Source: Lunularia cruciata
Lineage: Eukaryota; Streptophyta; Marchantiopsida; Lunulariales; Lunulariaceae
DNA length: 64,000 nucleotides
Assembly: GCA_948567375.1 (NCBI GenBank)
Contig: OX419759.1
Location: 56,138,593-56,202,592, forward strand
Reading direction: 5' to 3'
Shown: piece after piece, positions 4,093 through 64,000 of the stretch
Numbering within the stretch: the first letter of the stretch is position 1
How the letters are laid out: every line of letters begins with the position of its first letter
Notes under the pieces: model-generated
What the model saw: only the letters and a program-made list of their open reading frames with translations
What the model was told of the DNA's origin: nothing
Database searches by the model: none
Program-made: the position numbers and the translations under genes

Positions 4093-4161
4093 TATGACAA
4101 GCAGGGGGTCTTCCCATCCTTCGTTTTTCCTTCGCGGTCGCCTTCTTCATATGACAAGCAG
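4093..4161 (-). mobile_element. Short retroposon family, copy 1 (45 bp, 12-bp TSD)
   Basis: A 45-base insert (4105-4149) lies between two exact copies of tatgacaagcag (4093-4104 and 4150-4161). It starts ggggtcttcccatcc and ends cgcggtcgccttcttca. The core matches inserts near 9.86, 10.5, 12.5 and 21.85 kb. Strand is given relative to the 10.5 kb copy as plus. Confidence 0.8.
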
Positions 4162-5323
4162 CGGCACATGAGAAAGTATCTTGACGAGGCAAGCTGATAA
4201 TCCTCATTTCTAGATGTCTAATCGAGGAATAACAAGATCTCAATCATGTTCTTAAGTTTCATTGGATCTAACACCACAGAATGCTTTCCAAAGGCGTAGG
4301 CATAAATTGTAGACCTGTTCCAATCAACCCTTTTACCATGAATAGTGTTCAAGTCAATTGACCCCATCGAACCCGTTAGAAAGCGAATAAGCACCAATAA
4401 AAGTTCACTGTTCAAACCATGAACATCCTAAGGACTTTACCGAGTCCCAGGGACTTATGTCACAACTTTCGTCTTCGTCCATCGTTGGGCCATGAGACCA
4501 AAACAGAAGTAGTGTGGCTTTGTTCTCCGCGGGAGGCGGATGAAGAATATTGCTGTGAACGAGAACAACAACAGCTACGTCCGCAATTTAGACACATTTA
4601 CCACATGATACAAGTTCTTTCCTCGACAGGAAAAACAACCAATCAGACTTCTTAAAAATGAAGAATAAAATATTACCTGCATATCGTTGTGGTCCTCCGG
4701 AGACCAAAGATCCGAAAGTGACGGCTGTATGGGTTTAGCTTTATTGAACGCACTTCGAGTACTTTTATAGCAGGGACTGTGAGCGTTTATAGCGTTGACA
4801 GATCTACTCTTGACTGAATAAAGTTTTTATTCCGTGAGCGAATCATTGATGATTGTTCGTCGGTTTTAGAAACGTCAAATGTCCAAATATGAATGTTCGT
4901 GGAGATCTTTGAAGTGTACTTGTCACGATACAATAGGTCCTCACACGAGGACCTATTCAAAGGAACTAAATCAAGGCTAAACGAAGTCCTGATGAATGCA
5001 TTTTAGACACAAAATCCCAGTTAATGATACTCATAACTGCAATGCTATTCAGAAATTGGAGTGGAATTCTAGTCAAACGGTGAACCAAATTGCAAGGTAG
5101 GTCACAAAATTGCTGCTCGTAAATTTCTGGCGTCTACCTCATAGCATTGTGAGCTGGTATTTGGAGACTTGGTCTCACTTTTTGTATTTTGAATTCATCA
5201 TATCACTTGATTTTAGTTTGCTAGTTTCAGTAAATCTCAGATTTCAGTTTGCTGGTTTCAGTTTCAGTTCACCTTTTTTTTTTGGGGGTCTAAATACATC
5301 CCACCTTATCTAGGGATAAGTGA

Positions 5324-5370
5324 TTAGGGTTAGGGTTAGGGTTAGGGTTAGGGTTAAGGTTAAGGTTAAG
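5324..5370 (+). repeat. Interstitial telomere-like array
   Basis: Five perfect TTAGGG units (5324-5353) run into TTAAGG units (5354-5370). The array is bracketed by direct copies of gataagtgattagggt near 5315 and 5373. Isolated cttagggttaagcag motifs follow near 5410 and 5650. Most land plants use TTTAGGG, so this is either a different telomere type, telomerase-mediated break repair, or a simple repeat. Confidence 0.75.
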
Positions 5371-7868
5371 AAGATAAGTGATTAGGGTAAAGAGGGGCGA
5401 AGCCTCACTTAGGGTTAAGCAGGGCCACTCACTAGCTTCTGCTTCTATGTTTATATGTGTGTTTTCGGGGCTTGTTATTGTGAGTTCTCTTACAAGGGTT
5501 ATCCCTAAAACACCTTGCGTAACATCATCTCATGTGTATTCTATGCTACTTCAGTTTTGGATGTTATTCATGTTGGATGAGTGAACTTGGGTGTACTCTC
5601 TTTGAGAACAGTAGCGCAGAGAGAGGTATAATATCGTTGAGTGCAATCACTTAGGGTTAAGCAGTGTGTCTACTTTGGTGAGACTAGAAGAAACTTGAGT
5701 GGTAGTATGTCAGACAAATCAGAAGTTAGAATGACAGGCAAACCTTCTACTTCGCAAGAGCATAAACAAAAGTTCATAGTTGAACATAGTTGAATATTGA
5801 GATACTTGAGACCTTTCATATTTGATTCTTTGGCTACGTGCTCTCTTGATTCAAGGAACACCATAATAGTTTATAGTTCATAGTTTTCATCGAAGATCTC
5901 TATATGAAACATTCTGAAACTGTAAAGGGGTTTCTTGTAACGGAGAATAAGGAGAGTGAGAACTCTTCTTGACGGTAAGTCTCCTCAATGTTCAGGAGCT
6001 GAAAAGCACCGGAGGTGATATTACCCGCCTTATAGCTAATCTGTATGAAAGCGACAGCCAAAGATAGTTGCGAGTGCCCAGTTATGGTGAAAGTCTTCGA
6101 CTCTAAAGAATCACGTGCAGAAAGAGATGGTGCATAGTTGTCTCTTTTGAGAGAGGATAAATAATCAGGTCGTTCGAAGATAGACATCGACCTCCACCTT
6201 TTCCAAAGTATCAGTGCAGTATGTGCGAACATACTTTCATGGTAGCCAAGGTCTTATGATGTTCTCTTTTCCCTGAAAGCGAAAAGTCTGCCGGTCAGGA
6301 TCAATAAGTGCTTACCGTCGTACCTACTGCATCGTTTCAAAATTAGGATAGTGGAACTTACTTAACTCGTATTAAGCGATCTGGTATGCACTAGTTTGTT
6401 TATGGATTCCAACTCTGGCAAGAGTAGTGCTATTGCTCAACTGAAGCACACCACAAATTGACAAAAAAGGTAATGGCATTTAAGACAGATTTGCATTAGA
6501 TTGTCGACAACTGTTGCTTACCTCAAAGTTACGTCGGAACAACACTCTGAATTGACTCAAATATAAGCTAAATTTAAGACTTGTCTGGAACCCGCAACTC
6601 ATGCTACAAAGCACTAGGGGTATCGAGGAACAGACTCTGGACGTTTTAGCCTTCAGCCTTGTAGCCAAAGCTGTCTTTAGAAAATGATTTCAAAGCGTGT
6701 AAATCAGGTTCAGGCCACTGGTCATATTCTAACGGGAAGTGGTTGACTATTCTAATGATTACACATAGATCGCACTTTCTGCTCATTCCGTAGGTTGGAA
6801 CAAACAACACATCATTCTTTGCGTGTGCATACGATAGACCATAAAAAAAGAAGGATATAAAAGTACTACAAATCGCGTACTTCCATAACCTGAATGCGCT
6901 GAAGATAGAGGATGTTTGACGACCTATGAATATTTGTTGAGCACATGAGTTCGAATTGTACGAGTGGTGATTACAGCAAATCAGGTTGCAATAGAACAGC
7001 GAAGGAAGAAAACTCCAACAAACCAATCCTAACACATCCTTTGAACCCATCCTCTGCTTCCTAGCACATCCCCTGAACCCGTTATCTGGCCACATGTTAT
7101 GCAGTAGGTAAGGCAAACGCTTTAATTCAGGCATCACCAAGCTACCGGTAGAGTTATGTGAGCTGTTCACGACGTTCTTTAGTGCCCACTAGAGTCATCT
7201 TTCTTCTCCCTGGTATCATATGATGAGCAAGCTTGTGCCTGGGAACTCTCCCATCTCTCTTCACGCTCTTTCTCCGCTAAACCCCTCAATCTGCATGTGC
7301 AATTTCTGTGCACATGGATCGGGAGCAGGAGACACCAGTCTTACTGCACAGGTAAGATTCACATTCTCGCATTTCTTACACTCTTCCCCTTTCAGTTTTG
7401 CACCGCCCATACAGCTAGTAGGGAGGCAGTTTCGGTCCATATTTCCCTTGGGTTCTTCTCTTCTCCTCTTCTACGGTAGATCTTTTATGCACTCACATTG
7501 CTATTTCCCAGCTCACTTTCTCTCTTTGTGACCTTTGCACCGTCCATGTAGGTCCGAGCAAAAGGCTACGGAATGGTTTCACTGGGACAGTTGCTGGCAG
7601 ATCGATCTTGGATTAGGGATTTATCATGAGACGCTACCGATTTGGTTGGTATTTACTAACAGCTCGTACTTTTATATGCCTTATTCAGAGTAATGCAATG
7701 AGGTGCTCATTGATGGTAGTAAGTGTGTAGATACTTCCGCAAAATCCTCCATCGGAAAAGTGAGGTTTTATGTGCTCTGACGGAGTCTCTCCACTCTCGA
7801 AACTAGAAACAAAATCTGTCAGAGCACAGTGTATGTTTACAGTGACACCCTATTTCACAAGTTCATGT
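5371..7868. other. No recognisable gene
   Basis: Short ORFs only. A 174-codon minus-strand frame at 6646-7170 lacks an ATG near its start and shows no domain. A pyrimidine-rich plus-strand stretch lies near 7200-7530. Confidence 0.5.
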
Positions 7869-8808
7869 CTATATGAGCAGAACGTATCCTTCTACAACCA
7901 ATTCTGTTGTGGATAAGTACTGAACATCCACCTGTGGTTGCTCGCTGTTCCGATACTCTGTCTTGTTTGACCAATTCGGTTGCTTTATGATATTCTCACG
8001 GGTTACTGCCCCACCATCTTTGGCACCCACGCACTGTGCATAATCCGGAGGATTGCAGTTCTGACAATTGGTGTCCATATAGGCAGAAATATAAATGCTA
8101 GCTGAAATCCATAGTTCCGCGACAGACGTAAGACTAATTGAATTTAGGCACATGTATAGGGCATTCTTGACAGTGAAATCGTCTCACAAGAAGGCAGAGG
8201 ATTCCTAGCCGATCATAATCTTTGAACTGCCTGTAACCCGGGATTTGAGAAATGGATCGGACGGAGAATAAGAAAGTTGATAATAGTTGCGGTCTAGAAT
8301 ACGGATGAACGAGAGGACGGCATTGAGCATCCTATCACCTACTCAAGAAAATTTCACGAAAGTGGCCGATCAGTTGAATACAAAAGCTCTTTACCCGCTT
8401 ACCCAAGGTTCTGGTCCTCGTGATGTTTGATTTGAATGCGATAAGATTATGAATGGCTGAGAACCCTGAGTGGCCAAGGCTTACCAAGCACCAGCTGGAT
8501 TCGTCCCCTTTCGCGATGAGGGCGTTGTTTCGAGCAGCATCTTCCAACAACTTCTCACCACGACAGAACTCACAAGTACTCCAACTATTGATATGGTTTA
8601 AAGCAATTAAGTGTTTGCAGCACTCCTCCTCGGGTGGTTTTGATTGTGCACTTTCACCTTGATTGTAAAATTCATCCAAAGTACTGTAGCCTCCCCACAT
8701 GTCCCTAACGAAATTCGAAGCAGAGGATGTCGCAGTGTGCTGATTTTGAGCAAAATTTCCAAGCGAGAAGAAAGTATGTTTTATTCCATGTTCATCGATC
8801 TGGGCCAT
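7869..8808 (-). CDS. Candidate two-exon gene of unknown function
   Basis: I do not recognise this protein. The ATG at 8808 sits in a strong plant start context (aacaaATGGCC). Exon 1 (8808-8485, 108 codons) ends at a GTAAGC donor; exon 2 (8060-7869) follows a CAG acceptor in phase 0 and ends with TAG, giving 171 residues. Visible features are a CEFC pair with a nearby second Cys cluster in exon 1 and an NCNPPDYAQC stretch at the exon 2 start, which could be metal ligands. No signal peptide or membrane segment is apparent. The case rests on start context, matching splice phase and ordinary amino-acid composition; a chance ORF is possible. Confidence 0.3.
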
Positions 8809-9826
8809 TTGTTGGGTAGCGGCTTCGATTCACCTTCTTCCAGTAAATTATGAAATCGCGATTCCATCACTAGCGAATTTCCTCAAATTTGATGATGTGA
8901 AAGCTGTAAAATGTCGACATCTGCCTTATGCTGATTTTCTTAAATCCTGGACGCGATTGGTTCGTAGTCAATCTCTTCCTGATTTTGAAACAAGAATTCA
9001 GAAGGTCGGAGCCTAACCGTTCGTCTTACACTTCTGTTACTTCTGCGCTCCGTTCGGTATCATAATTCTGAAAGGGCAGACTTCTGCTGAATCCTGAGGG
9101 AATTCGGGTTGCAATCAAGAATCATCAGGCTGAATCCAGTTCAATTGGCAAGCGCAACGTGGAAGTCTTGGAGAAAACAGCGGCAGTGTGGCTGACATTC
9201 ATATCAGCAAGATGGATTTGCGAAGACTTCAGGTGTGAAACTGCCGCACAGAAGGGGTCTGTAGGAGCAAATGACAAGCCTGATTTTTGGGTGGTCACGT
9301 CTTAATATGTTCACAACCCGACTTCGACTCAATTTTCCAGAGCCACTGAGCTCAGCTAAGTGCATGAAAACACGACGCAACATTTTCAGCGAGGAGTTTT
9401 CTTCTGCACTTCCAGCTCAGAACGTTGAGAAACGAAAGTTGCTTACAAAAGATAAAGGTCAAAACTCAATCTTTGACCCTATAATGACACTTCTAACTCA
9501 ACCTCACGCAAACGTAGGTGTGAATCACTGATGTCAATTTTTAGCTCAGCACCCACGTTCAGACCGCAGTCATGCAGAGTGCATGAAACTCTTGTGGCTT
9601 TGAGCTCTCTACATGTAGGAGCGCTGTTACCCATCTCAGTTTAAGCGATTAAGCTGCAATCCAATAGATTATCTGGAGGTTGGAATTGGGTGGGTGAATT
9701 ACATTCTCTCTAGATCGGTGTCCTGACACACTCATTGAGATTACGAATCTACCCATCATCACCTGAGAATTCTGCATTGCTTATTGCGGTCCTTCACTGT
9801 CAAGCATTGAAGTCGATCCATATTAA

Positions 9827-9894
9827 ATAGTATCATGGGGTTTTCCATCCTTCTTGTTATCACACGCGGTCGCGTTCTACGTTTATAGTATCAT
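9827..9894 (-). mobile_element. Short retroposon family, copy 2 (48 bp, 10-bp TSD)
   Basis: A 48-base insert (9837-9884) sits between exact copies of atagtatcat. It begins ggggttttccatcc, the same 5' boundary as copy 1, and ends in the cacacgcggtcgcg version of the tail, a second subtype shared with copy 4. Confidence 0.78.
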
Positions 9895-10470
9895 CGGAAT
9901 GACAGAAACCTGTAGTGTTTGCATATGCAATTCTTTTGAAGTCTGGCACTACCGAACCTCTTTAATGCATTCCAATGATGAGCAACTGAATTACAGATAG
10001 TCCTACCGATGACCAAATACTCATTGGCAGACGTAGGTAACGAGCAATAAGTAAAAAGTTTTGGATTCTTTCTTCTGCATCACTTCACACGTTCCATTTT
10101 CCAGAAGGGCAGAAAGTAATGAGCAAGAATCACTGGTGGTTTGTGCAGAGATAGAGTTAACCGACCCCCATATTTGGCAGACCCTCAAGTTGGCGGGAGA
10201 CTTAGCCAACCCCCCCGGAAGCCTTGACGGGGGCACGTCAGTCCTATGTGGCGATGGATTCACAAACACGTACTATTGTTCCTAAGTTAGTCACTATAAA
10301 GCATAGGACTAAACCTAAGTGGTTGCCAGCTATAGCTCATGGACGCCACGCCGGACCATGTCGCTCTCGGTGGTGGGTGGGGGGACCCTTTGAAGTGTTA
10401 CTCGGATTGTTTGTGGATCAGTCATGAGAGGAACCTGTAAATCACAATTGTGGGGGATAGTTGATGAGTT

Positions 10471-10608
10471 ATAAACATAGCAAGAAAAAGGCGACCGCGT
10501 AGGAAAAATGAAGGATGGGAAGACCCCATCAAGCCGTACAAGGGAGAGACAAAAAAAGGTAACATGGGGCTAAGCCCCACTAGAGTCTGTATGAGAAATA
10601 AACATAGC
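10471..10608 (+). mobile_element. Short retroposon family, copy 3 (116 bp, 11-bp TSD)
   Basis: A 116-base insert (10482-10597) lies between exact copies of ataaacatagc. It holds the common core (ggcgaccgcgtagg, then gaaggatgggaagacccc), a middle part (atcaagccgtacaagg) and a perfect hairpin tggggctaagcccca near the far end. It has no ORF and no terminal inverted repeats. It is one of two long copies. Confidence 0.82.
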
Positions 10609-13600
10609 TAGGATATGAAGAATGTAATCATAGAAGTTTGAGATTGTTCTAGTATTATTTTGAGTTGTTAGTGCCCAGCCAACTCATGCTCATTTAACCA
10701 TTCCTAACTCAACAGTTCGGTTCAAGCGTATGATACAAATACAATCTTTTATAGTTACCTTATTTTTTTTCCTGAGGTTGAGCGAGAGTTATCATTTTAT
10801 AGACATAAATGAATGTTTGAAACTTAGATTTCATCGAGTGTGTTTTATCGTTGTGCGTTTGGGTATGGAAACAAATTTAGTGTAGAACTCGGGAAATCAA
10901 CTAAATGCGAGAAAGAAAAGAATTAGAAATAAGATGATGGGATGACAATGATATCTCCCATTCTATACATGGTTTGGGATACATTTGGGATATTGGGATG
11001 ATGCCAGAAGGTAATTCAAGTGAATGAAACTTCCATCCAGAAACATTTATACATCCTAATCCCATCCATATTACGAAGGAGTAAATTTAGATCAACGATC
11101 GAACCATGCTCAACCTTAAAAGTATTACACCTCAGCATGAAAATCGCATGTGAATATGTGATCCGAGGATACGAGGCTGAAAGAGGTAAAGGGATTCCAT
11201 TGCGTTTATATTTCAAGACGCACGGATCACCCATCTAGCTATAGGACTCGTAATCAATCACAACATCAAGTATGAGAATCGTGGAGTGTAATTCTTACAT
11301 TTATGTACTGGTAGTTTGGTCTGAAACATAGAATTATACTAAATCTCATTAATAGGTGATTAAGATATACGGTTCAAGTAATAATCGTTAAAAATTAGCT
11401 CTTGGGCAAACTTTACCGAAGGAATCAATCAAAATAAGTTAAGCTAAAATATGTTTCATTCAACGATCAATCTAATAATTAACATGCAAGAATAATAATA
11501 GAATTTGACAAGCATGTGAGAAAGCTTTTAGCTAGCATAACTCAACAAAAGAAAGTCGTTGATGAAATAAAGTCGTATACCTCCGCTTATGATCCCGATA
11601 TGACCGTTTCATCCACGCCGGATATAAAGTTCTTCCTTCATATCTTGATTATTAGCTGGAAGAAACGCAACAACTCCTGTGTATGTGCAGCAATGAGTAT
11701 CTATATTTTCCACTTCATTTGTCGGTGAAGCAGCAACCTGTAAGGATTTTTTTCATTTAATTTCCAAAGATCTAATGCTTGTCTAAAACAATTATATCCA
11801 TCTAAATGTACCCTCAAAATACAGATGATTCTTGTAGCTCCTTATCTCCTGTTAAAGGAATGGTAGTGAATTCCACAAAAGGTTGATAAGTTGTTGTACC
11901 TTGATAATGACAAAAGAGACGTTCCTTGGAACGGCCTAACATACGCGCCAATCTACTAATAAAATTTAATCTTAAATTATTATAAATAATCACATACAAC
12001 TATTATTGAAAGACCCGGAAAATATGTCCAGTCAATGGAAAGAGCCTCTATAATCTTATAAATAAATGATTATGCTAATCTGCTTTAAAATTAACCAGGA
12101 AAATATATATAATAGAAAAATGACTCTATAATCTTTTATTATTATCAAGTGATTAGGGTAGAATGATATTGAATGACCATGAATATTCTGTACAATGGAA
12201 AACACCTAAACCTTGAAATATGGAAAATGAAGAAGAGGTAAGGAAAAAAAATTTTAGAACAAATAAAATACGATAGCATTTGAGAAGATGCATTTCCACA
12301 TAAATGACTAATGAAGTCTCCAAATGGAGTTTCAGGAGGTTCAAACTATCGACCAAAAACCTTAGTTTGCAGTTCTAGAGTGATGTAAGATAAAGATATG
12401 GTGTAGGGCAGATTCCTCTCGAGGTTACTATTGGGGCTCAGCCCCATTTTCACCCCTACGTCTTTTCCTTGTACGGCTTGATGGGGGTCTTCCCATCCTG
12501 CATGTTATCACACGCAGTCGCCTTCTTCGTTCTAAAGTTCCAGTTCTTCTTTGCGCAAGATAAAGACATTAGCGTTTGAACTCAAATTATGATTTATGAT
12601 TCTTGATTAGTTCAAAGTTAAGTTAAATTGCTTAATAATAAAATGTTCTTAGATTCTACATTTTTATGCAAAATCTAAGCGCATTTCTCGTTATTATTCA
12701 AGTCCTTTTTCAAGTTCTAAAGTGTAGATTTTATTAATACTAAGTATTCACAAACTTATACACCATGGATGTAACTTTGAAACCAGTAATGTCTTCTTGA
12801 CTCTTATGTTCTTACTCTCACATCGAATACGAACCAGTTCCGAAAGCTAGCTATTACTAAGGTTGAGCCTTATTATACTTATGAGATTTTTAAGCTTATG
12901 GGAAGTTACCTTAAAGTACGTAAGGAGGCACTAGCTAAACATGGGACATGAATTATATACCCTACCTTGCTAATGTGGGATAAGATGAGGTGACTAAACT
13001 TCTAATAGTGTCAAATTTCAGAAAGCATAATATGCATCTTTACTTGGGTGGGTCAAATTTTGATGAAAAGATGAATTTGATACTTGAAAAGTATATTCTC
13101 TTGAATTTTCCCCTATAAAATTATTTCGCTTCATGTATAAAATTTCTTCATATTATATATGTTATTTCAAATAATAATATTCTTTTCCATTTGGCGTGTA
13201 ATCAAGTTTATCTATAATACAACCATAATTATCACAAACTGAAATATGTTTCTGTTGTGAATATGTAAAAATTCTTAGCTTCAGTGTCGTTGTTGAAATT
13301 GATATTGCTTCTTAGATCACTGTTGTTTGTATTGTATATATAATATTGGTATAAAATTATGTAGAAGTATCATAAATTACTATTTAAGTGACTATATAGA
13401 CTCTTCCATGGAAGACATTCTTGATAGAAGACACAAGAAAAGTGTCCCAGATATATTGTAAGTAAAAGAAGATCTTGACAGGTCTTAACTTCAACCTTTA
13501 TGATTCATTCCAGAAATATACCCTTTAATACTAAGAGATCTCTAAATATTATGAGAATATTTGATGAGAATTTTTGAATATCTATTTTTTCTCATTATAA

Positions 13601-13882
13601 GGAACAAACTACACCCTGAATAATATATGATCATTAATCTTACTTACGCGTCTCAATCATAGAAGATGACAATCATTTGGTTTATATATAAGTAGACAAA
13701 AAGGAATATCATTGTTTCTGTAAATGTGGTATATTTTAAGGAGTTTCTACCAATATACATAACAATCCATTGGTAAATCATTTTATTTGTATCAATCAAG
13801 AATTTTATATATAAATATCGCAGTTCATCAGATTAAAATTAGAATATAGATTATAAAAGCTAGTGAGAATACTATGCCTACT
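10609..13882. other. AT-rich intergenic DNA
   Basis: No coding region can be supported. Only short ORFs occur and the sequence is strongly AT-rich from about 11.3 to 13.8 kb. It contains retroposon copy 4. Confidence 0.6.
12387..12566 (-). mobile_element. Short retroposon family, copy 4 (160 bp, 10-bp TSD)
   Basis: A 160-base insert (12397-12556) lies between copies of aagataaaga. It is the reverse-orientation counterpart of copy 3: hairpin ttggggctcagccccat, then cttgtacggcttgatggggg, then tcttcccatcctgc and the cacacgcagtcgcc tail. It extends about 30 bases further at both ends than the other copies, so the true full length may be about 160 bp. Confidence 0.78.
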
Positions 13883-15459
13883 TTATACTCTGCTGCAATC
13901 TTTACGAATGACACCTTTCTTTCCTGTAAGAACACCAATCTGGCCCATCTTCACCATAGACACTCCGAATTCTTTGAGAAACGGTGTGCTTGGATTCGCA
14001 GCAAAGGACTCGACCAGAGAACGGCCAAACGGGTCAGTGATGAGAGCAGAGTCGGAGACGAAAGTGGTCTTATTTGCAAGAACATTTTTATAGTAAAGGC
14101 TGTCAAACACTTGGCCTCCTTTTGTGGGGTCCAGAAGAATATCTTCGTCATTCACTGGTTGATCTTCTGGGCATTTCCTTTTGAGCTGAGCAGCAAATTT
14201 TGGATTCAAAGACGGATCCGTCTTGACAGTGGATGAAAAGTTGTACAAACGGGGCCAGATTACTGTGCAGTGTGTTTCTCCGATTGTGTGTGCACCTGTC
14301 AATGTCCACAAGATCTAGAAACAATCAGGAAAGTGAAATGGAGTGGAGTTCTCACAGTTAAAACAGTATTGCCGCAGTGTAAGGTGGTTTAAGATCTCGT
14401 CAGTGGAGGTCTATTTTCAGCAGACAAACCTTGAGCAACAAGTACCTGATAGTACCACCATATCCTTCGGAGTGAGTCCCGTTGCTTCAAAGTTTTGGAC
14501 AAGCTCAGTGAAGTTCATGAATGGACTGGGAAGGTTGGCCTCTGCCTCTTCTGCGATGGATATCACGCCGTCCCTACGGCCTAAAGGGACAGGAAAGTAA
14601 AGTCCTCTAGTCTGCAAGGAGGTAAATATAGTGCTGGTAAGCGTCTGTGGATGTAAATCATAAGTATACCAATTAGAGCGGGCTAATATGCGAGTTTGAA
14701 CAACGCTATCGGACTTGCACTTACAATGAGAAGCGAATCTCTTGAAGCCAGAGCAACAATGTCAGCACATGAAACAACTCCAGGGCAAATTTTCTCAATT
14801 TCGGATTTGACTTTCTTGATCGCATCAAATCCTTCAAGCGAGTTCTTGTTTGGGGTAGCATCCATCTCAGCCAGATTGTTCGAAGTTGACTCGATCAGTA
14901 CCGAGGCATCGCACCCCTGCAATTCCGGATTGGACAACTGTAAGCAGAAATGAAAGTAGACGTCTGGAGCAGAAAATTTCACGGACATTGGTTCAGTAGC
15001 AGTGAAATAGCTTCTCCTCTGTAGAGGAAATTTCGGATTTGAGAAGTACTTGGGTGTAAAGAATGAAACATAATCAGAAACAGTCAATTCAGGTACTCTT
15101 TATCTGTAAGATTAGTTCAATGGAAAGGCAAGTTCGGCTTAGTGAGAAGAGGTCTGATATTCTCGAAACGACTCATGGTTGCTGCACTCAAGGATTGGTG
15201 TCATTACCCGAACAAAGCAATCGTGGAAGTGCAGACGGACTAGATCTGCTGGAAGATCATCTTCTTTGGAGGTGAGTTTCTTGATCATATTGTAGGCCGT
15301 TATGGTTGCTTTTGGGCAGCTCTTTGCATAATATGATTCTGACAAACCTGGGTGGACTGCACACGGTGAAGCTGCATCTGCTGCAACTGCGAGGGTGATA
15401 ATTAAACCTATTGTCCGTGCAAGCACATGTTCTTGTTTCAATCTGACGAGAGATACCAT
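13883..15459 (-). CDS. Secreted class III peroxidase, four exons
   Basis: Class III peroxidases are haem enzymes of the cell wall and vacuole that oxidise phenolics with hydrogen peroxide. Exons are 15459-15208, 14916-14725, 14611-14446 and 14295-13883, all with GT-AG introns of 291, 113 and 150 bp, giving 340 residues, a normal length. A signal peptide covers about residues 1-30. Distal Arg75 and His79 lie in RLHFHDC and proximal His206 in SGAHTIG. All eight conserved cysteines are visible (48, 81, 86, 128, 134, 213, the RKC site and 337). The three introns match the ancestral land-plant pattern. No stop or frameshift was found, so the gene should be functional. The neighbouring duplicate at 18.6-20.1 kb is broken. 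Confidence 0.93.
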
Positions 15460-16845
15460 TTTTCCTGCGTTGTCAATTGTGTTCAGAATACTGGAGTCAG
15501 AAACTTAATGGTGAGCAATAATCAGTATCGTACTTGTGAATGTGCTAAAATAAAATCACCCTTGTCTATGATAATCAGCTCACAATGCCTCTGATTCAGA
15601 AGAAAAGAGCCACCCTTACATATGTAGAAATGTATGCGTGAGTGTATGATAGACTACTTCTTTGGAAGGTCATGCAAAACCCCCCTGCAATATATTGTAC
15701 CTGTGAAGTTTGCAGTTGTTGACGAGGTTTGGCTTCCTGCTCAACGAACTCGATTATCCACCAGGATATAGATAGCAATTGCCAAATTTGCTGGAGAGAA
15801 GCGCTGCAGATGAAATTAATCTCACAACATTGGCTCTTTATACTCATTGGACAAAATCTGAGTTTAGTACATAATGAATGCCACCGTTACAAACTTATGC
15901 ATGAAGAATCTTAGCCTGTAACCACAGTGATCGTGAAGACATGCCAGACAGCGGAACCAATCCAAAAGATTAAGATAAAGCAGTAAAAAGGTAATGAAAC
16001 AGTTATATAAACTTCAAGAGTTTGATGTTGATAGACACCCTCTGAGAACCTAGTAAACCTGGACATAGCCTTTGGATTACATGTGGTGTGATGGGTGTAA
16101 TGGATACTTCCTCCAGAACCATCTGCAACTGGGGGTACAGTTCATGATCGGCGTTGCTGTAGGTGAAACATTGGGTTGCCAATGTTACAGATGTCAGGAC
16201 TATGGAGAAAATACCGAAATAGGAACGATTCTGGACTCAGGATTTCGAGGAGATGCACTGTACATTGTTCTGTAACTAGTACTTGTGCCGACTCTTGCTA
16301 AACTATATACAAATATACCTGTTCAACTACCCTATCTCAAAACTGCTTCAAAATCTGATGATAAAGATCATCAGATTGGATGTGTATGAAGTGCACACAT
16401 AACGACTAATTGTAGCGTGTTTTTGAAGTACTTCGAATGAACTGTATGTTTCTGAAGTTCACGTTAGTGTTATGAGGAAATATATGAAAAAGCATGTACT
16501 TCTGGCTTTGACATCGATCTGGATGGTATTCTGTGATTGATCCATTACTTAGATTATTTATTCGATCCGGACATTTTTAATAGAGAAGAAGTTATCGATT
16601 GACAAAACAGAAGTTCGACCCAGCTGATTCTTGAACTTCAACCTTTCTGCTGATTGTGGGTGGAATAGTATGTAGATACATTCGGGTCTCCGTAAGATAG
16701 CTCCTCAACGTTTCACAAACTACAGAACTATCCCTGAATTCATTGGGTATATGTCTTGACTGAATTTCACATCGAAGTCAATACTGAACTGGTCAAAAGA
16801 GAGAGGTTGTCGGAAGCTGGTCGCAGAGGATGATCGACGGGAAGA

Positions 16846-17740
16846 TTCAAGCACGCTGTCCCTCGACTGCGCAGATCGATAGGTAATCGCTGCTCGGTCA
16901 CCCGCCTCATGCTCTGCCCTCCACATGATTTCTCAAGACTCCCTCACTTCCGCAGAGGGGCCAAAGTCGAAACTCTACGCTTCGAGTGGACGTGCCTTCC
17001 ACATGTTACCACGGGTCCTCAAGGAGAGCTCAACTTCACAATCTCACACCCCTGCTAGGGTTACAGGAGTACGTCCCCCAGGTGCTAGAGCTTCGGCAAA
17101 CCTGACTTCAATATACTCTGGTGTGCAATCTGCATTAATCATGGTTCTTACGGAATGAACATAGGCAATATGTCGGATTTATAGGAGACGAAATGTGTTC
17201 AGTTCACTTCGAAATGTTCTACCTCATTGTAGACTTATATGGTGAGCACATTGATCCTCAAAAGCATATGCTCACACACCAATCCTGTCTAACCGAAAAT
17301 AACTTCTAATCAAAAGGGACTTCAGGTAAGCGTTAGGCATCCTTGTTGCCCTAATGAATGCAATTTGTTGATTTTATCTTGATTCAAACGTGGAAATATG
17401 GTAATGTGGTAGGTATACTAATACGAGTTTTACGTCATATTTTCAATTCAAGTTAGGTATTTCTCCACACTAACCCCGGAAGCTAGACAATGGACGATTT
17501 TGTGATTCCAGAACTTGAACTATAAGTGAAAACAAATCTAAAGTTTGATCTACTAGATCCCTTTGCGCAGGCTCCAGCATCTGGGTAGTGTAACGGTCGC
17601 CTGTAACTCGAGTGGGAGTGTGAGAATGTAAAACTGGAGCTGTCCTTGCAGACCTGTTGTAATATGTGGAAGGCAAGTCAGGCGGGTAACTGAGCAGCAA
17701 CTACCTTCCTGCATAGTTGAAGGATAGCGTGTTTAAACGT
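16846..17740. repeat. Foldback (inverted repeat) in unit 1
   Basis: The plus arm (about 16846-17090, starting near aagcacgctgtccctcgac) is matched in reverse orientation at about 17570-17740. Shared landmarks include ccttccacatgttac and the stretch ending gttacagg. The spacer is about 480 bp. The inner arm lacks part of the outer one. No transposase ORF is seen. Confidence 0.65.
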
Positions 17741-18558
17741 TTTTCCGTCGATCATCTTATCGAAGCAACTTTTAGCAATTTCTCTCTAAATATCGTTTTG
17801 CGAAAGTTATGCCGGTTGATTGTCTAACAGCTTTGATGCCGCTCTGCAAGTGTAGTTTGGGTTTCGTTGTGCTTACTGATGATTTTCGTGACAGCCTTCC
17901 GGTTTACTGCCAGCTTGCTGTAATACAGAAACGACTCCTGTAAATCTAACACAATCATGAATACCTTCTTACACAAATTCATAGAGTAGAAGTTGCCCAA
18001 TGTGAGCATGCATCAATTCTATGATGGTGCCTAGCTTCAAGCCCAAGCTTCTCAAGTGCATGGTAGAAAGACACAGTGATAGCTATTGCCCTGTCCTGGC
18101 GCGGAAGAGCGCGCAGAGGTGTCATCAATTATGCCTTCTGATCATTTGAAAGTTGACTCGAAATTTAAAATTCCGATGCATTCTTCGTATTTCAAGACAA
18201 CATGAAATTTGCAAGTAGGAGTGGGTGTGACGATTATACATCAGACAACCATAACATATGGTGTCAAGATTATTTTAGCTTATCATCTCTCAGGTGCTCT
18301 GTTTGATTGGGATAGAACCATTTTATTGACAAGAGTCACTGACTCAAATGTACAGAAAATATGGAGATGAAACTTCATATGGATAGTTCCAATAATATTC
18401 CTTTTAGCTTCAGCTGTAGATCCTCTGAGGAGACAGACCAACACTGTAGCCAGTGCCTGCAATACTCAAAATCAGGTCCACATGTAAGAAACGGGATACA
18501 GTACAAAGAGTGAAATTAAGAACTATGCAACCGCAGGAATATGAAAACTATGCCTACG

Positions 18559-20138
18559 TTACACACTGCTGCAAACTTTACGAATGGCACCTTTCTTTCC
18601 TGTAAGAACACCAATCTGGTCCATCTTCACCATAGACACTCCGAATTCTTTGAGAAACAGTGTGCTTGGATTCGCAGCAAAGGACTCGACCAGAGAACGG
18701 CCAAACGGGTCAGTGATGAGAGCAGAGTCGGAGAAGAAAGTGGTCTTATTTGCAAGAATATTTTTATAGTAAAGGCTATCAAATACTTGGCCTCCTTTTG
18801 TGGGGTCCAGAAGAATATCTTCGTCATTTACCGGTTGATCCTCTGGGCATTTCTTCTTGAGCTGAGCAGCAAATTTTGGATTCAAAGACGGATCCGTATT
18901 GAGAGTGGACGAAAAGTTGTACAAACGGGGCCAGATTACTGTGCAGTGTGTATCTCCAATTGTATGTGCACCTGTCAATGTCCACAAGATCTAGAAATAA
19001 TCAGGAAAGTGAAATGGAGTGGAGTCCTCACAGTTAAAACAGTATTGCTGCAGTGTACGGTCGTTCTAGATCTAGTCAGTGGAGGTCTATTTGTAAGAGA
19101 CAAATCCTTGAGCAACAAGTACCTGATACTACCACCATCTCCTTCGGAGTGAGTCCCTTTGCTTCAAAGTTTTGGACAAGCTCAGTGAAGTCCATGAATG
19201 GACTGGGAAGATTGGCCTCTGCCTCTTCTGCGATGGATATCACGCCGTCCCTACGGCCGAAAGGGACAGGAAAGTAAAGTCCTCTATTCTGGAAGGACGT
19301 AAATTTAGTGCTGGTAATCTGTGGATGTAAATCACAAATATACCGATTAGATCGAGCTAATATGCGAGTGTAAACAACGCTATCGGACTTGCAATTACAA
19401 TAAGAACCGAATCTCTTGAAGCCAGAGCAACAATGTCAGCTCATGAAACAACTCCAGGGCAAATTTCCTCAATTTCGGATTTGACTTTCTTGATCACATC
19501 AAATCGTTAAAGTGAGTTCTTGTTTGGGGTAGCATCCATCTCAGCCACATTGCTAGAAGTTGACTCGATCAGTACCGAGGCATCGCACCCCTGCTTTTGC
19601 GGATTGAGCAGAAATGAAAGTAAACGTCTGGAGCACCGACGTTTACAAAAATTTCCCGCACATTGGTTCACTAGCGTATGAAATAGCTTCTCCTCTGTAG
19701 AGAAAATTTCGTATTTGAGAAGTACTTGGTGTAAAGATGAGGGTTATCAGAAACAGTCAATGCTGGTACTGTTTATGTGTATGATTAGTTCAACGGAATG
19801 GGAAGTTCGGCTTAGTAGGAAGAGGTCTGATATCGTCGAAACTGCTCAAGGTTGTTGCACTCGAGGATTGGTGTTATTACCCGAACAAAGCAATCGTGGA
19901 AGTGTAGACGGATTAGATCTGCTGGAAAATCATCTTCTTTGGAGGTGAGTTTCTTGATCGCATTGTAGGCCGTAATGGTTGCATTTGGGCAACTCTCAGT
20001 ATAATACGACTCTGACAAACCTGGGTGGACTGGATACGCTGCAGTTGCATCTGCTGCAACTGTTGCGATGGTGATAAGCAAACCCTACACGATAGTCCGT
20101 GCAAGTATATGTGCTTGTTTCAATCTTAGAGATACCAT
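18559..20138 (-). pseudogene. Class III peroxidase duplicate with three premature stops
   Basis: Exons align with the intact copy as 20138-19881, 19590-19399, 19288-19123 and 18971-18559. Breaks: TAG at codon 18 (20087-20085), created by a 6-base insertion in the signal peptide; TAA at 19509-19507 where the intact copy has Glu112; and TGA at 19443-19441 where it has Cys134, a disulphide cysteine. The exon 2 donor has weakened from GTAAGT to GTAATT. Exons 3 and 4 remain open, including the proximal-His motif and terminal Cys, so loss of function looks fairly recent. Confidence 0.88.
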
Positions 20139-20306
20139 TTTTCCTGCGATGTCAATTTAGTTTAAAATGGTGGAGTCAGACACTGATGGTAAGCAAACCT
20201 ATCGGCCATGCAAGTACATTTGTTCTAATCGTAGAGATACCATTTGGCCTGCGTAGTCAATTTAGCCTCGAATGCTGGAGTCAGAAACGTAAGGTAACTT
20301 AAGGTA

Positions 20307-21185
20307 ATCAAGCACACTGTCCCTCGTTTGCGTAGAGCGAGAGGTAAATGTTACCCGGCCACCCGCCTCACGCTGTGTCCTTCACATTATTTCCCTATAC
20401 GCCACTCACATACGTGGAGGAGCCTAGACTGGAAATTCCACGCTCCGACTGGACTTGACTTGCACATGTTACTACCGATCCTGAAGGCAGCTACACCTTC
20501 ACAATCTCACCCCCGTTAGGATTACAGGAAGACGACCAAGATGAACATAGTGATATCTAGTTCTTCTGATATCGATCAAGTTGGTAACTATATTTAGAAT
20601 CGCTATGTAAACTGTGGTATATGATTACGGAACGATTGATCACCAGTTGGAGCTGGTTGAATTTTACGAGAGAACTATCGTTCACAGAGAATGTGATCCG
20701 TATACATGTAGGTAAGCTTTAGGTTTGCTTGTTGCCCTAATGAATGCAATTTGTCGATTTTATCCCGATTTAAATATGTAAAAGTGGGTGTGTGGTGGTT
20801 GTACTATGTCATATCTCAATCCAAATTAAGTGTTTCTCCACACTAACTTCGGAACCTAGACAATGAACATACGTGATTCCAGCACTTGAAATTTTGAGTG
20901 AAGATGAAGCCACAGTTTAATCTAGTAAAATCCTCTTTTTGCAGGCTCTAGCGTCTTGGTGGAGTAGTGGCCGCTTGTAAACCGAGTGGAAGAATGAGAG
21001 TGTGAAGCTGGAGCTGCTCTTGAGGACCAGTGTGGAAGAAATGCCCATTCGAATCCTGGAGTTTCCGCTGGCCTCCTCCGGGGAAGTGTAAGGGATTTGA
21101 CAAGATGGAGAGTACATCGTCAGTGGGGTGACCGAGCAGCGATTGCCTCCCGCTCTGCGCAGTCGAAGGACAGCGTGCTATCAAT
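20307..21185. repeat. Foldback (inverted repeat) in unit 2
   Basis: The plus arm (about 20307-20535) is matched in reverse at about 20945-21185 with a spacer near 410 bp. The inner arm is closest to the outer arm of unit 1: both share agcacgctgtcc, tcgactgcgcag and aatcgctgctcggtcaccc. The structure therefore predates the duplication. A 78-codon minus-strand frame in the inner arm has no recognisable domain. Confidence 0.65.
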
Positions 21186-21824
21186 GTTTCCCATCGATCA
21201 TTTTCTCTTCGGCAACTCTTCTTTTGCGCACATTAGTTGCCCGTCTAACACCATTGACGCCGCCCTGCAAGTGTAGTTCTGATTTCGTCGTTAGAGTGTA
21301 GTTCCGATATCGTCGTGTTCATTGATAATTTCCATGACAGTCTATTGCTTTGCTACCACGTTGCTGTACGACTGAAACTACTCTTGTGAATCCAATGCAA
21401 TCACAAATGCCTTCTCACACAAGTTCAGGAGTATCATGATCACATAATTCTTCAAAAGAATCGTTACAATCAAATGCTGGACAACATCATACCTTCGGCT
21501 GGAACATCAAATTCTATATCAAGTATTCAAATCAGAGTTTACTCATCAACACCATCAATGTTGTAGTAAGATAGTTGTAAAGGCTCCGAGGATATAAATC
21601 CGGTGTATATACCCTTGCCTTACAGATGTGATGGAGCACTTTTCTTCAACAATTATGTGAAGCGATTCTTTAAAATCGTGTCTGAGAAGGCATTCATAAC
21701 GGTCTGATATTAAAGAGTTCATTTTATTTCATACAGTAACATGTAGGCAGAACAGACGGGAGTCACGGAAACGTAACCTTGGCGATCTAGATTCCCATGC
21801 CAGCTGCTGCTAAGTTGACACTAT

Positions 21825-21881
21825 TGTGAGAGAAGGCGACCGCGTAGGAAAAACGAAGGATGGGAAGAAGTGTGAGAGAAG
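21825..21881 (+). mobile_element. Short retroposon family, copy 5 (35-bp core, 11-bp TSD)
   Basis: The core gcgaccgcgtaggaaaaa plus cgaaggatgggaagaa (21836-21870) lies between exact copies of tgtgagagaag. It is the shortest member and is truncated just before the gacccc block where copies 1 and 2 begin. Confidence 0.75.
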
Positions 21882-54546: not shown

Positions 54547-54971
54547 TGTCATGGGGAACGTTCGGTCTTGAGAGTGCGCCGAGCACATGGCTGCTTGTGC
54601 TTAGTTTTCTGAGGTTGACTCACCCTGAAGGTTTTGTTTTATCCTTGACTTTTGTAAAACCAATCTTGTCATGCGAGGTTGGTGTTATGGTTTCTACCTC
54701 TGCTTGGTCTCATATCCTATTTTCTTGTGAGGTTCAAGCTATGGTTCGGGATCTGGCAGTTCATAGACCTAGGTCCGGTGGCCCTTTGATAAAATAAAAT
54801 AAACAACAACTGAGTGATCTAACTGAACATAAATCCGGCGCTCAGATCATTTAATTATGCTTTTCACCTGGACCAGACTGAGAGATCCTAGAATGGAGTT
54901 TCCTCAACTCTAGTCACAATTCATAACACAAATCTGCTTCCAAGACTCATTTCACATTTCAAAAATTCCTA

Positions 54972-55452
54972 TCCTGGTTCAAAACACAGTCCTAAGGCAT
55001 CTCCAAAAGCCTTCAGCCCTTCAAGACTCCTTTCACATTTTGAAAATTCCTATCCTGGTCCAAAACACAGTCCTAAGGCATCTCCAAAAGCTTTCAGCCC
55101 TTCAAAACTCTCTTCACATTTCGAAATTTCTGTCCTGGTCCAAAACACAGCCCTCATGCATCTCCAAAAGCCTTCAGCCCTTCAAGACTCCTCTCACATT
55201 TTGGAAAGTTCTCTCCTGGTCCAAAACACAGCCCTTAGGCATCTCCAAAAGCCTTCAGCCCTTCAAGACTCCTTTCACATTTTGAAAATTCCTATCCTGG
55301 TCCAAAACGCAGCCCTAAGGCATCTCCAAAAGCCTTCAGCCTTCAAGACTCCTTTCACATTTCAAAAATTCCTATTCTGGTCCAAAACACAGTCCTAAAG
55401 CATCTCCAAAACCTTCAGCCTTCAAGACTCCTTTCACATTTCAAAATTTCTC
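54972..55452. repeat. E4 LTR minisatellite 1, about 80 bp x 6
   Basis: Units marked by tcctggtccaaaacacag at 54972, 55053, 55133, 55214, 55295 and 55375; periods of 80-81 bp. Repeated in the other LTR at 61061-61541. Confidence 0.9.
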
Positions 55453-56165
55453 TCCTGGTCCAAGCACAGCCCTGCACTCTCACATTTGGAAACTCCTCTC
55501 TTGGTCCAAGCACAGCCCTGCACTCTCACATTTCAGAATTCCTCTCCTGGTCCAAGCACAGCCCTGCACTCTCACATTTCAGAATTCCTCTCCTGGTCCA
55601 AACACAGCCATGCACTCTCACATTTTGAAATTTCTCTCTTGGTCCAAGCACAGCCCTGCACTCTCACATTTCGAAATTCCTCTCCTGGTCCAAGCACAGC
55701 CCTGCACTCTCACATTTTAGAATTCCTCTCCTGGTCCAAACACAGCCTGCACTCTCACATTTTGAAATTGCTCTCCTGGTCCAAGCACAGCTTTGCACTC
55801 TCACATTTTGAAATTGCTCTCCTGGTCCAAGCACAACCATGCACTCTCACATTTCGAAATTCCTCTCTTGGTCCAAGCACAGCCCTGCACTCTTACATTT
55901 CAGAATTCCTCTCCTGGTCCAAACACAGCCTGCACTCTCACATTTTGAAATTGCTCTCCTGGTCCAAGCACAGCCCTGCACTCTCACATTTCAAAATTCC
56001 TCTCCTGGTCCAAACACAGCCTGCACTCTCACATTTTGAAATTGCTCTCCTGGTCCAAGCACAGCCCTGCACTCTCACATTTCAAAATTCCTCTCCTGGT
56101 CCAAACACAGCCTGCACTCTCACATTTCGAAATTGCTCTCCTGGTCCAAGCACAGCCCTGCACTT
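55453..56165. repeat. E4 LTR minisatellite 2, about 47 bp x 15
   Basis: Units of the form ctggtccaagcacagccctg then cactctcacattt. It shares the ctggtccaa.cacag block with array 1, so array 2 probably arose from it by shortening. Counterpart at 61542-62254. Confidence 0.88.
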
Positions 56166-56220
56166 TCAAGCCCCTTCCTGTCCAACTCGAAAATTCCTCT
56201 CCTCTGTGTGTGTTCCTCTG

Positions 56221-56735
56221 TCCAAACCCTCCAGCTTCTCGAGAATTTCTCCTCCTGCCAAACCCCCTCCTGTCCAACTCAAAAATTTCTCTCTTGTGTG
56301 TGTTCCTCTGTCCAAACCCTCCAGCTTCTCGAGCATTTCTCCTCCTGCCAAACCCCCTCCTGTCCAACTCGAAAATTTCTCTCCTCTGTGTGTGTTCCTC
56401 TGTCCAAACCCTCCAGCTTCTCGAGCATTTCTCCTCCTGCCAAACCCCCTCCTGTCCAACTTGAAAATTTCTCTCCTGTGTGTGTTCCTCTGTCCAAACC
56501 CTCCAGCTTCTCGAGAATTTCTCCTCCTGCCAAACCCTCTCCTGTCCAACTCGAAAATTTCTCTCCTGTGTGTGTTCCTCTGTCCAAACCCTCCAGCTTC
56601 TCGAGAATTTCTCCTCCTGCCAAACCCTCTCCTGTCCAACTCGAAAATTTCTCTCCTGTGTGTGTTCCTCTGTCCAAACCCTCCAGCTTCTTGGGAATTT
56701 CTCCTCCTGCCAAACCCTCTCCTGTCCAACTCAAA
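56221..56735. repeat. E4 LTR minisatellite 3, about 90 bp x 6
   Basis: Units marked by tccaaaccctccagcttct at 56221, 56311, 56403, 56493, 56583 and 56673, very homogeneous. Counterpart at 62310-62824. Confidence 0.9.
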
Positions 56736-57169
56736 ATTTCCTCTGTCCCTAAAAAGCCTTCCTGACTACTCCTTCATGATCATTCCAATCCCTTTCGATT
56801 CCCTTCCTTCCTGCCCACCTTCTGTCCTCTGCCCCCAAACTCCTCCTGTCATTCCCCGAAAAAAAAAAACCCCTTGCTCTCTCGACACTCCTCTGTCCCT
56901 TTTCAAAAAAAAACCCTACTCCTTTCTTCTCCTGAAAATTTCTGCCACTCCTCTCGAAATCCTCTGCCAAACCCTCTTGAAATCTTTTGGCATTTTGTGA
57001 AAACCCTCAGCCCTTCTCTGTCTCCTCACTTTCTCCCAAAACCAGGTAGCAAAACCACACCCGAGACATATTATCATAAATCCCTGTTTCTTACAACAAA
57101 TAAAAGAGAAAAGAAAATTTATCACACCAAAAGCCTCAAGGGTACATGTGGGCTTTTTTCCCGACGACA

Positions 57170-57184
57170 TTCACCCCCACCAAT
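57170..57184 (-). promoter_or_regulatory. E4 polypurine tract
   Basis: Minus strand ggtgggggtgaa immediately before TGTCGTCGGG. Confidence 0.7.
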
Positions 57185-57209
57185 CCTGTGCAGCCTCCGG
57201 TCTGCACCA

Positions 57210-58721
57210 TCAAGCCTCTAGAAATCTAGTGCAAACCTTCCTCCAAAACATGATCAGGTACTTCTTCCAAGTTGCTTCTTTTCTGTTACCTCCTTCTGCA
57301 ACTCCAATATTGTGTTGGAACGTATCTCTCTTGTTCTCTTTCAAATCTTGCAGTTTGTTGTAGAGCTTATGGTTTCTCACAAGTAACTTCTGATATCCTC
57401 CTGTTGCTGCTTTGGTAGGCTCTTGGATTCTAATACAAACATCTGCAACAGAGTCATGCCATGCATTATGGAACCCCACAACCAAAAGTCTACTATTTCG
57501 TGATGCAACTTGGAGATTCTTTAGCTTCTTGAGAAAACTTTGCAGGCTGTTCTTGAAGGACCCCTGCTCCTCTTGCAAAATCTTGGCAGCTGCCTTTGAA
57601 CTGGTCCCCAAAGCACAATATTTGTTCTTGGACTCCTGGAGCTGAAGTTCAATGCTCACCATTCTTTGTTCCATTTCTAGCCCCAACTCTTCTTTCTGCA
57701 ATTTGTACAACTGTGCGTGCCCTTCACTCAATTGCTTCAGTGCACCGATATCGGTCAAAGCAGTGGTTTTATCCAAAAGCTGCATCTTCTCTTCAGCAAG
57801 TATTACTAGCTCCTGATCTGACCCTTTGAGAGTGTTGATATCCTTCATGAGTAGACTAATTGTTGACAAAAACTCCTTCCTTTTGTTGGCAAGCTGTACT
57901 CTCTTCTGATCCAATAGCTTGAATGTACTTGTCCCTTCAGCCAACATTTCCTTTTCCTCCAAAACATCTTCTTGTACATCAACCAATTTGCCTTTTCTTC
58001 TGTTCTTCCTTCTTTGACAAGTCCTTTTGTGGCTTTGATTCGGTCTGGCCATTTCGCACCATATCGGCATCCATGAGCAGCAACTCAAGCTCTGCCTTCC
58101 TCTTCTTCTCTTCCTTCTTTTGGAAGGCTGCCTCTTCCTTCTTCTTCTTCTTCTCTTGCGCAGGTAGGCTTCCAATACCATTTCACCACTCTTGGTCTTC
58201 CTCATCTTCTCCATAAGTTCCTCACTAAGCTCACCTAGTCCTGTGTGAAACTTTCTCTCAATGTTTCCTTTCTCTGATTTCTTGCCCACCACCTTTTCCT
58301 CGTCCAATCCTCCTGTCTTAGACAACAAGAACAGATACTTTGCTTGCAACTTATCTTTCTCCTTACCAATAACCTTCTCAATATTGCTATTCCCATCCTC
58401 TTTGACTCTACCGCCTTCTTGCTCAGAGTCAGAACTTGATGCCACATAGCCTTTGAAGTCTTGTTCATTCAGTTGGTCAAGATTGAACTTCTGCCTCAAA
58501 GCTTTCTCATACTCCTGCAGCTTCTTAGGATCAACTTCATCATCAATTTTGTTGTCGTTGTGGCTGTAAGTACCTTGAGGTCCCTGCATTGCTTCCTTTG
58601 CTATCTGCTCCACCCCAAATTCAGATGAATATATTGTCAAAGACTTGACTTTCCCTCCTTTCAGTTGGAAAGAGCACAGCCCTAGAGGCAAGTCTAATGC
58701 TGTGGTGTGGCCCCAATCCAT
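57210..58721 (-). pseudogene. ESF1: Captured ESF1 fragment fused to a coiled-coil protein (E4 ORF3)
   Basis: ESF1 is a nucleolar factor for 18S pre-rRNA processing. The 503-codon frame begins in its RRM-like part (MDWGH, then IYSSEFGVEQIA and QGPQG), jumps over roughly 150 residues after KKLQEYEKA, and resumes at LRQKFNLDQLNEQDFKGY, ASSSDSEQEGG, AKYLFLL, FHTGLGELSEEL and EAYLRKR. The next stretch is read out of frame as Arg-rich sequence; the ESF1-like reading (KAELELLLMDAD) is in another frame, and frame is regained near KLVDVQEDV. The second half, about residues 240-500, is a Leu/Lys/Glu coiled coil of unknown origin. The unit has no introns, suggesting capture through RNA. Confidence 0.82.
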
Positions 58722-63258: not shown

Positions 63259-63262
63259 ACGC

Positions 63263-64000
63263 TTTACTCCAAAATGTCCTAGCTCCTCATGAGCATGACG
63301 GACCAACTGTGGTCTCTGTGATGGAAGTAGAACTACTCGCACTCTACCATCTTCCCATACATGCAAAAGGTTTTTGCCCTCCAATCTGAACCGTCTGGCT
63401 CGTTGAAGAACTCGGTCTCTCTCCTTGGCCCCAACTGTGCCACCCACAACACCAGTGCAAAGATAGTCCATCACTAAGACATCATCATGAATGTCTCGCT
63501 GAACTATACCAATATCTTCACTCTTTGGATTTGTGACCTCAATAACTCCTCTTGTATGCGCTGAGAGAGATACCACCAAAGCCTCTGAAAATATACAAAG
63601 AAAGGGCAATGCATGCCAACCTGGCACCATCTCCTCATCTGTCTCACCATGCCAACATGCTCTGGTCTGATCCTGCTGGCTGGGACATGGGTTTCTACTC
63701 AACCCATCTACATCACGGTTCACCACTCCAGGTCTGTGAACAACCGTGAAATCATACTCCTGTAAAATCAAAGCCCATCGTGCAAGCTTCCCTGAAAGCT
63801 TGTCAAACTCCATCAACCACTTCAGTGGCTGATGATCAGTGATGAGAGTGAAGGGGTTACCAAATAGGTAACATCAGAAATGTGCTATTGCCCAAACTGC
63901 TGCCAAGCACTCTCCCTCATATGAACTTTACTTTGCCTCCGCTGAATTGTTGGAGCAACTAGCATAGACCACCACAAACGCCTTCCCCTCATCATCATGC
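63263..64000 (-). pseudogene. E5 RNase H end and integrase N-terminus
   Basis: Shows ECLAAVWAIAHF, LITDHQPLKWL and VNRDVDGLSRNP, the usual end of gypsy RNase H, then a linker and HAHEELGHFGVKR, the His pair of the integrase zinc finger. The codon for the last Arg is split by E4; the matching continuation (TYRLLQSHYWW) is at 54545 downward. A stop replaces a residue near 63910. Runs off the window. Confidence 0.85.

Follow-up and report, generated by a model that had tools for sequence, protein, structure and literature searches.

Short duplication-flanked inserts in the liverwort Lunularia cruciata as probable extreme 5'-truncated copies of an R2-like LINE without a fixed target

L1 and RTE, two kinds of non-long terminal repeat (non-LTR) retrotransposon, carry an apurinic/apyrimidinic (APE)-type endonuclease. 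In the accessible text of a 2022 review of land plants, they are the only long interspersed nuclear elements (LINEs) named, and their plant copies are described as often 5'-incomplete, with 3' ends of (A)n or (GTT)n (PMC9033089). The R2 element of animals goes into one site of the 28S ribosomal DNA (rDNA), according to the accessible part of PMC13188248, and 5'-truncated copies of it are also described. BLAG of the German cockroach is likewise R2-related, and it is dispersed and not site-specific (both in the accessible part of PMC7650587). Utopia and NeSL are further non-LTR elements outside the 28S site with a restriction-like endonuclease (RLE), and Utopia targets U2 small nuclear RNA genes with varying strictness (PMC4640811, accessible part). 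Our literature search, which had Repbase and most subscription journals outside its range, found no recognised report of an RLE-type LINE in land plants. Here we describe a stretch of 64,000 nucleotides of the Lunularia cruciata genome (contig OX419759.1; the window), in which five inserts had been proposed to represent a separate family of ultra-short retroposons. Our results indicate that these inserts are very probably copies, truncated to an extreme at the 5' end, of an R2-like non-LTR retrotransposon that is abundant, recently active and without a fixed target, a kind of LINE not expected in land plants.

The inserts share a core, which was searched for as the exact pattern CTTCCCATCCN{0,30}CGCGGTCGC in the 565.8-Mb genome (74 contigs). 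The search yielded 1,601 forward and 1,613 reverse matches, 3,214 in total, and the reversed control pattern yielded 0 + 0. A 19-mer just 5' of the core occurs 3,061 times, and a 24-mer about 1,000 nt upstream occurs 2,623 times with up to 3 mismatches (control 0 for each); the latter count tolerates mismatches and the core and 19-mer counts are exact, so that a ratio of long to short copies cannot be derived from them. For closer study, 114 distinct copies were sampled, comprising 100 listed places (two of which are one overlapping match) on the first 18.9 Mb of contig C1, neighbouring near-core copies with at most 2 core mismatches in the first block and at most 1 in the second, and the five window inserts. 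Apart from those of the window, all sampled copies thus represent one part of one chromosome. The exact core is present in 102 of the 114. The most common spacer between CTTCCCATCC and CGCGGTCGC is TTCATTTTTCCTA (34/114 copies), and TTCGTTTTTCCTA-like and TTCTTGTTATC-like types are found too, which suggests several LINE subfamilies.

Two sampled loci, L018 and L023, hold long copies in which the core lies at the 3' end. In a comparison of the left flanks of the fetched copies, their likeness reaches far upstream of the core, with 97.5% identity over 3,722 bp, and each carries its own separate duplication, of 10 and 11 bp, respectively. L018 contains an open frame of 973 amino acids (aa) that terminates some 80 nt upstream of the core end, and a short frame ahead of it in which a C-x2-C-x12-H-x4-H motif was recognised by eye in the translation. 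The element measures about 3.7 kb and its 3' untranslated region (UTR) about 90 nt. Eight of the ten long copies that were sampled at both ends begin at a common GAGGAGCTGC block. The original prediction itself had named a core that belongs to a longer transposon as a finding that would refute it, and this is the finding obtained; a separate ultra-short family, like that of a short interspersed nuclear element (SINE), is not borne out.

In Pfam, RVT_1 was the only family that the 973-aa frame matched above cut-off (E 2.1e-14); no APE-type endonuclease family of Pfam was found in the L018 frames (973 and 122 aa) or in the L023 frame (808 aa). A search of solved structures with the single sequence placed R2 proteins at the top (E 6.9e-8). 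With a profile of 16 sequences, the R2 protein 9nl3 was matched at E 6.5e-36 in two stretches, the reverse transcriptase (RT) and the CCHC/RLE region, the second at residues 776-928 (independent E-value, i-E, 6e-5), whereas L1 ORF2 was matched in the RT alone (E 7.9e-10). The likeness to the solved animal R2 proteins (9nl2, 9nl3, 9dou, 8gh6 and 8ibw) covers the RT and, by profile, the CCHC and RLE regions, and it includes the single open reading frame (ORF) type with a putative N-terminal finger motif. The element protein has a CCHC motif (C-x-C-x9-H-x4-C) at 753 and a RAD-x-D motif at 811. As judged from its sequence, the parent element is an R2-like, RLE-encoding non-LTR retrotransposon with an RT of the non-LTR type, a CCHC knuckle and a predicted C-terminal RLE. 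All 47 scored genome matches, a lower bound drawn from 26,637 first-look candidates, cover the entire 973 aa at 97-100% identity, and 32 of them have no internal stop. Since the copies are near-identical and mostly stop-free, the family looks young and recently active.

Among named sequences, the protein comes closest to four from the liverwort Riccia fluitans, which are 44-52% identical to it across 32-39% of the ORF, and to proteins from the alga Closterium, at 30-38% identity. In a tree of 25 rows, made from database proteins without clade labels (R2, R4, NeSL, Hero, CRE, Utopia), the L. cruciata element joins the four Riccia proteins and one further protein (98/98); three Closterium proteins branch off outside this group, and a long-branched fourth could not be placed. 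As far as we have seen, the element is an uncommon host record for the known RLE-type LINEs.

Evidence for insertion comes from the duplications. As had been reported, each of the five window inserts lies between exact direct repeats, and a script recovers lengths of 12, 10, 11, 10 and 11 bp (Table 1). With 4,000 random 32-bp cores drawn for each setting (window positions 200-24000), a repeat of 10 bp or more turned up in 0.45% when 40 bp to each side were allowed and in 5.3% when 130 bp were, so the repeats at five of five inserts are not due to chance. Across the sample, duplications of at least 10 bp flank 43 of the 114 copies, compared with 110 of 4,000 mispaired flanks, and duplications of at least 9 bp at the boundary were found in 38 of 90 truncated copies, compared with 22 of 1,781 mispaired controls. 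The joined flanks of 43 copies were used as queries against the sampled loci, and one clean empty site was obtained: L018:658-801 matches the flanks of the insert in L021 at 93.8% over 146 bp, with a single ACTTGTAAGTGT in L018 and, in L021, a 43-bp insert between two ACTTGTAAGTGT copies, a 12-bp duplication. This paralogous pair is direct evidence for insertion with duplication. Weaker junction-spanning matches were not used (L021 with a second place in L018, 80.4%, and elsewhere in L021, 82.2%; L036 with L010, 81.6%; L022 with L020, 83.6%); numerous L029 matches to joined flanks were the element's own copies, and other matches were the query's own locus.

Tails and sites were studied in 42 copies that have both a duplication of at least 10 bp and a tail of at most 20 nt; their inserts measure 35-210 bp. 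The tails are 0-19 nt long (median 9.5) and, over 402 nt, consist of 89% C+T (58% T, 31% C, 7% A and 4% G), compared with 46% C+T in the right flanks and 55% in the duplications. Where poly(A) had been reported as lacking, a pyrimidine tail takes its place. This C/T-rich tail differs from the (A)n or (GTT)n ends of plant L1 and RTE and, together with the missing APE family, sets the element apart from both. Unlike R2, with its fixed 28S site and animal host, and unlike Utopia with its snRNA genes, the element is found in a plant and has no fixed target: the 42 duplication-bearing copies occupy different sites, in which no common motif is seen apart from a weak preference for T at early positions of the duplication (21 and 25 of 42). 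Dispersal is shared with BLAG, whose host is again an animal.

Several observations weigh against these assignments. By the loose test used, 71 of the 114 copies have no exact duplication of at least 10 bp; age and mutation may be behind this. Only three of the ten long copies, besides L018 and L023, have a duplication near the 5' end (9, 11 or 12 bp, at most 30 nt from the GAGGAGCTGC block), and a fourth, L104, with 11 bp at 46 nt from the block, is doubtful. In the protein, the Pfam zinc-finger matches at the N-terminus fall below their cut-offs, the single-sequence search reaches the R2 RLE region only at i-E 95, and the RLE-type motif reads RAD, not RPD; among 45 relatives scanned, P0006, P0007 and P0019 have RPD at this motif.

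The boundaries of the copies bear on how they arose. The original prediction of one constant end and variable truncation at the other holds, with the correction that it is the 3' side (CGCGGTCGC and the tail) that stays constant and the 5' side that is cut at scattered points. Most inserts hold 3' UTR sequence. The reported lack of terminal inverted repeats was assessed by eye alone. At first sight both boundaries differ between copies and lengths vary, as they would if fragments had been caught at chromosome breaks during repair without any retroposition. In the 42 duplication-bearing copies, however, the junction follows a C/T-rich tail and is no more than about 20 nt away from the core, and coverage rises from 2-5 over most of the element to 46 near the 3' end (window plus 20 loci, all picked by the 3' core, for which a common 3' part is expected). 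Capture during repair is accordingly extremely improbable. The likeness to LINE-driven retroposition that had been pointed out is confirmed by the constant 3' end, the variable 5' truncation, the duplications of variable length and the one empty site.

Very short copies far outnumber long ones, with 91 of the 114 ending before 250 nt, and there are several spacer types, both of which would suit a separate SINE-like family, that is, a short RNA gene that had borrowed the LINE 3' end and was mobilised in trans. Against such a family, the 5' ends are scattered and not defined, longer copies run on into the LINE ORF, and the fetched copies share no common non-LINE 5' head. An origin from tRNA or another known RNA, which had been put forward for comparison, found no support: no tRNA was detected in the window or in 57 of 75 small loci (the other 18 being long-copy loci or others left out), and Rfam gave no match at the core at the element 3' end or over the window inserts. 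We consider a SINE-like family very unlikely. In place of the proposed class of mini-retroposons stands an R2-like LINE with a predicted RLE in a plant genome, of which the short inserts are truncation pushed to an extreme. An Rfam search for a ribozyme at the L018 5' end gave none, and one weak microRNA match was far below its gathering score.

The lengths of the copies do not follow a single constant drop-off rate. Measured from the core end, the number of copies falls from 114 to 87 at 60 nt, 53 at 90, 33 at 120, 23 at 250, 15 at 600 and 11 at 1,282 nt; 24 copies align through the entire 250-bp left flank and 90 do not, and one of the 24, L015, had aligned via a neighbouring copy and was later reclassed as short. 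The per-base chance of ending is 0.0132 from 32 to 120 nt, then drops to 0.0029 from 120 to 250 nt and to 0.00078 from 250 to 1,282 nt; at a given base, a copy is about 17 times as likely to end in the first 120 nt from the core end as past 250 nt. Were the rate seen over 32-250 nt to hold throughout, only 0.0008 copies would reach 1,282 nt, where 11 are observed. This falling rate would fit if the same LINE had a distinct mode of insertion in which 3' UTR fragments of decayed element RNA serve as template, instead of synthesis failing midway on full RNA, and degradation of the template 5' end and end-joined truncated insertions are treated for R2 in the accessible part of PMC11331408. On the other side, the median aligned length is 282 nt in the least diverged third of the copies and 93.5 and 89.5 nt in the others (86 copies, each aligned over 60 bases or more), so part of the excess of short copies may be due to selective loss or decay of long ones that are old, and the trend weighs against the excess being wholly a property of insertion; diverged copies such as L028 may also look truncated where the alignment fails. 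A decayed-RNA mode is possible, but on balance we regard it as doubtful.

Structure of the 3' UTR was also considered. Aligned 5' ends seemed clustered near a hairpin at GGGGCTTAGCCCC, but the ends defined by duplications are spread, and some diverged copies (L028) only look truncated there, so a hairpin stop was rejected. Folding z-scores were -1.08 to -1.95 for four longer sequences and 1.12 and 0.18 for two short inserts, and no compensatory change was found in the first hairpin among 42 copies; RNA structure beyond chance is not supported.

Taking truncation of the R2-like LINE as the origin of the inserts, the biochemistry of R2 suggests how they could form. The element protein would nick ordinary chromosomal DNA at no fixed target and prime the copying of the element RNA into cDNA from its 3' end (target-primed reverse transcription). 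In most events the copy would stop within or near the 3' UTR, for whatever reason, and a second-strand cut some 10-12 bp away would produce the target-site duplication. More broadly, R2-like RLE LINEs with no fixed target may form a lineage that land plants inherited vertically, running from Closterium through Riccia to L. cruciata, with two modes of insertion: one that ends at once inside the 3' UTR and leaves thousands of duplication-flanked stumps, perhaps via decayed 3' UTR templates, and one that is processive to full length. We find this plausible while leaning slightly against it. The numerous dispersed copies record where R2-like enzymes start and stop, which is relevant to R2 proteins as gene-insertion tools.

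Table 1. The five inserts of the window and their flanking duplications (positions in the window).
Feature	Position	Strand	Description
Insert 1, 45 bp	4105..4149	+	3' UTR end of the LINE, then tail CTTCTTCA
Duplication of insert 1, TATGACAAGCAG, 12 bp	4093-4104 and 4150-4161		exact repeat, by script
Insert 2, 48 bp	9837..9884	+	3' UTR end, spacer type TTGTTATCACA, then tail GTTCTACGTTT
Duplication of insert 2, ATAGTATCAT, 10 bp	9827-9836 and 9885-9894		exact repeat, by script
Insert 3, 116 bp	10482..10597	-	final codons of the LINE ORF, stop codon, entire 3' UTR, tail CTTTTTCTT
Duplication of insert 3, ATAAACATAGC, 11 bp	10471-10481 and 10598-10608		exact repeat, by script
Insert 4, 160 bp	12397..12556	+	final ORF codons, 3' UTR, unusually long 35-nt 3' extension
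Duplication of insert 4, AAGATAAAGA, 10 bp	12387-12396 and 12557-12566		exact repeat, by script
Insert 5, 35 bp	21836..21870	-	terminal part of the 3' UTR, without separate tail
Duplication of insert 5, TGTGAGAGAAG, 11 bp	21825-21835 and 21871-21881		exact repeat, by script

By BLAST against the L018 element, inserts 3, 4 and 5 are 96.3%, 78.3% and 97.0% identical, respectively; insert 2, too short and diverged, gave no match at E 1e-4. The extension of insert 4 past the core occupies 12522-12556, compared with the usual 10 nt or so in duplication-bearing copies. All five inserts lie below 22 kb, outside the gypsy nest as originally stated, with the long pol-like ORFs at about 30-42 kb.

The window holds further repeats. 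Four stretches resemble the 7SL RNA family Plant_SRP, all below its gathering score of 105: 16803-17083 (-, 81 bits), 20954-21235 (+, 58.4), 20270-20536 (-, 29.8) and 17580-17744 (+, 23.3). The first also exceeds the Metazoa_SRP threshold (70.4 vs 70), and the four may represent either 7SL copies in decay or a repeat derived from 7SL. The stretches 13867-15518 and 18543-20196 form a direct duplication of about 1.65 kb (89.6% identity, 4.68 kb apart), and weaker similar stretches past it take in the 7SL-like copies. Finally, 54547-57221 and 60636-63310 are near-identical at a distance of 6,089 bp, and tandem repeats (about 46, 80 and 90 bp) lie within them.

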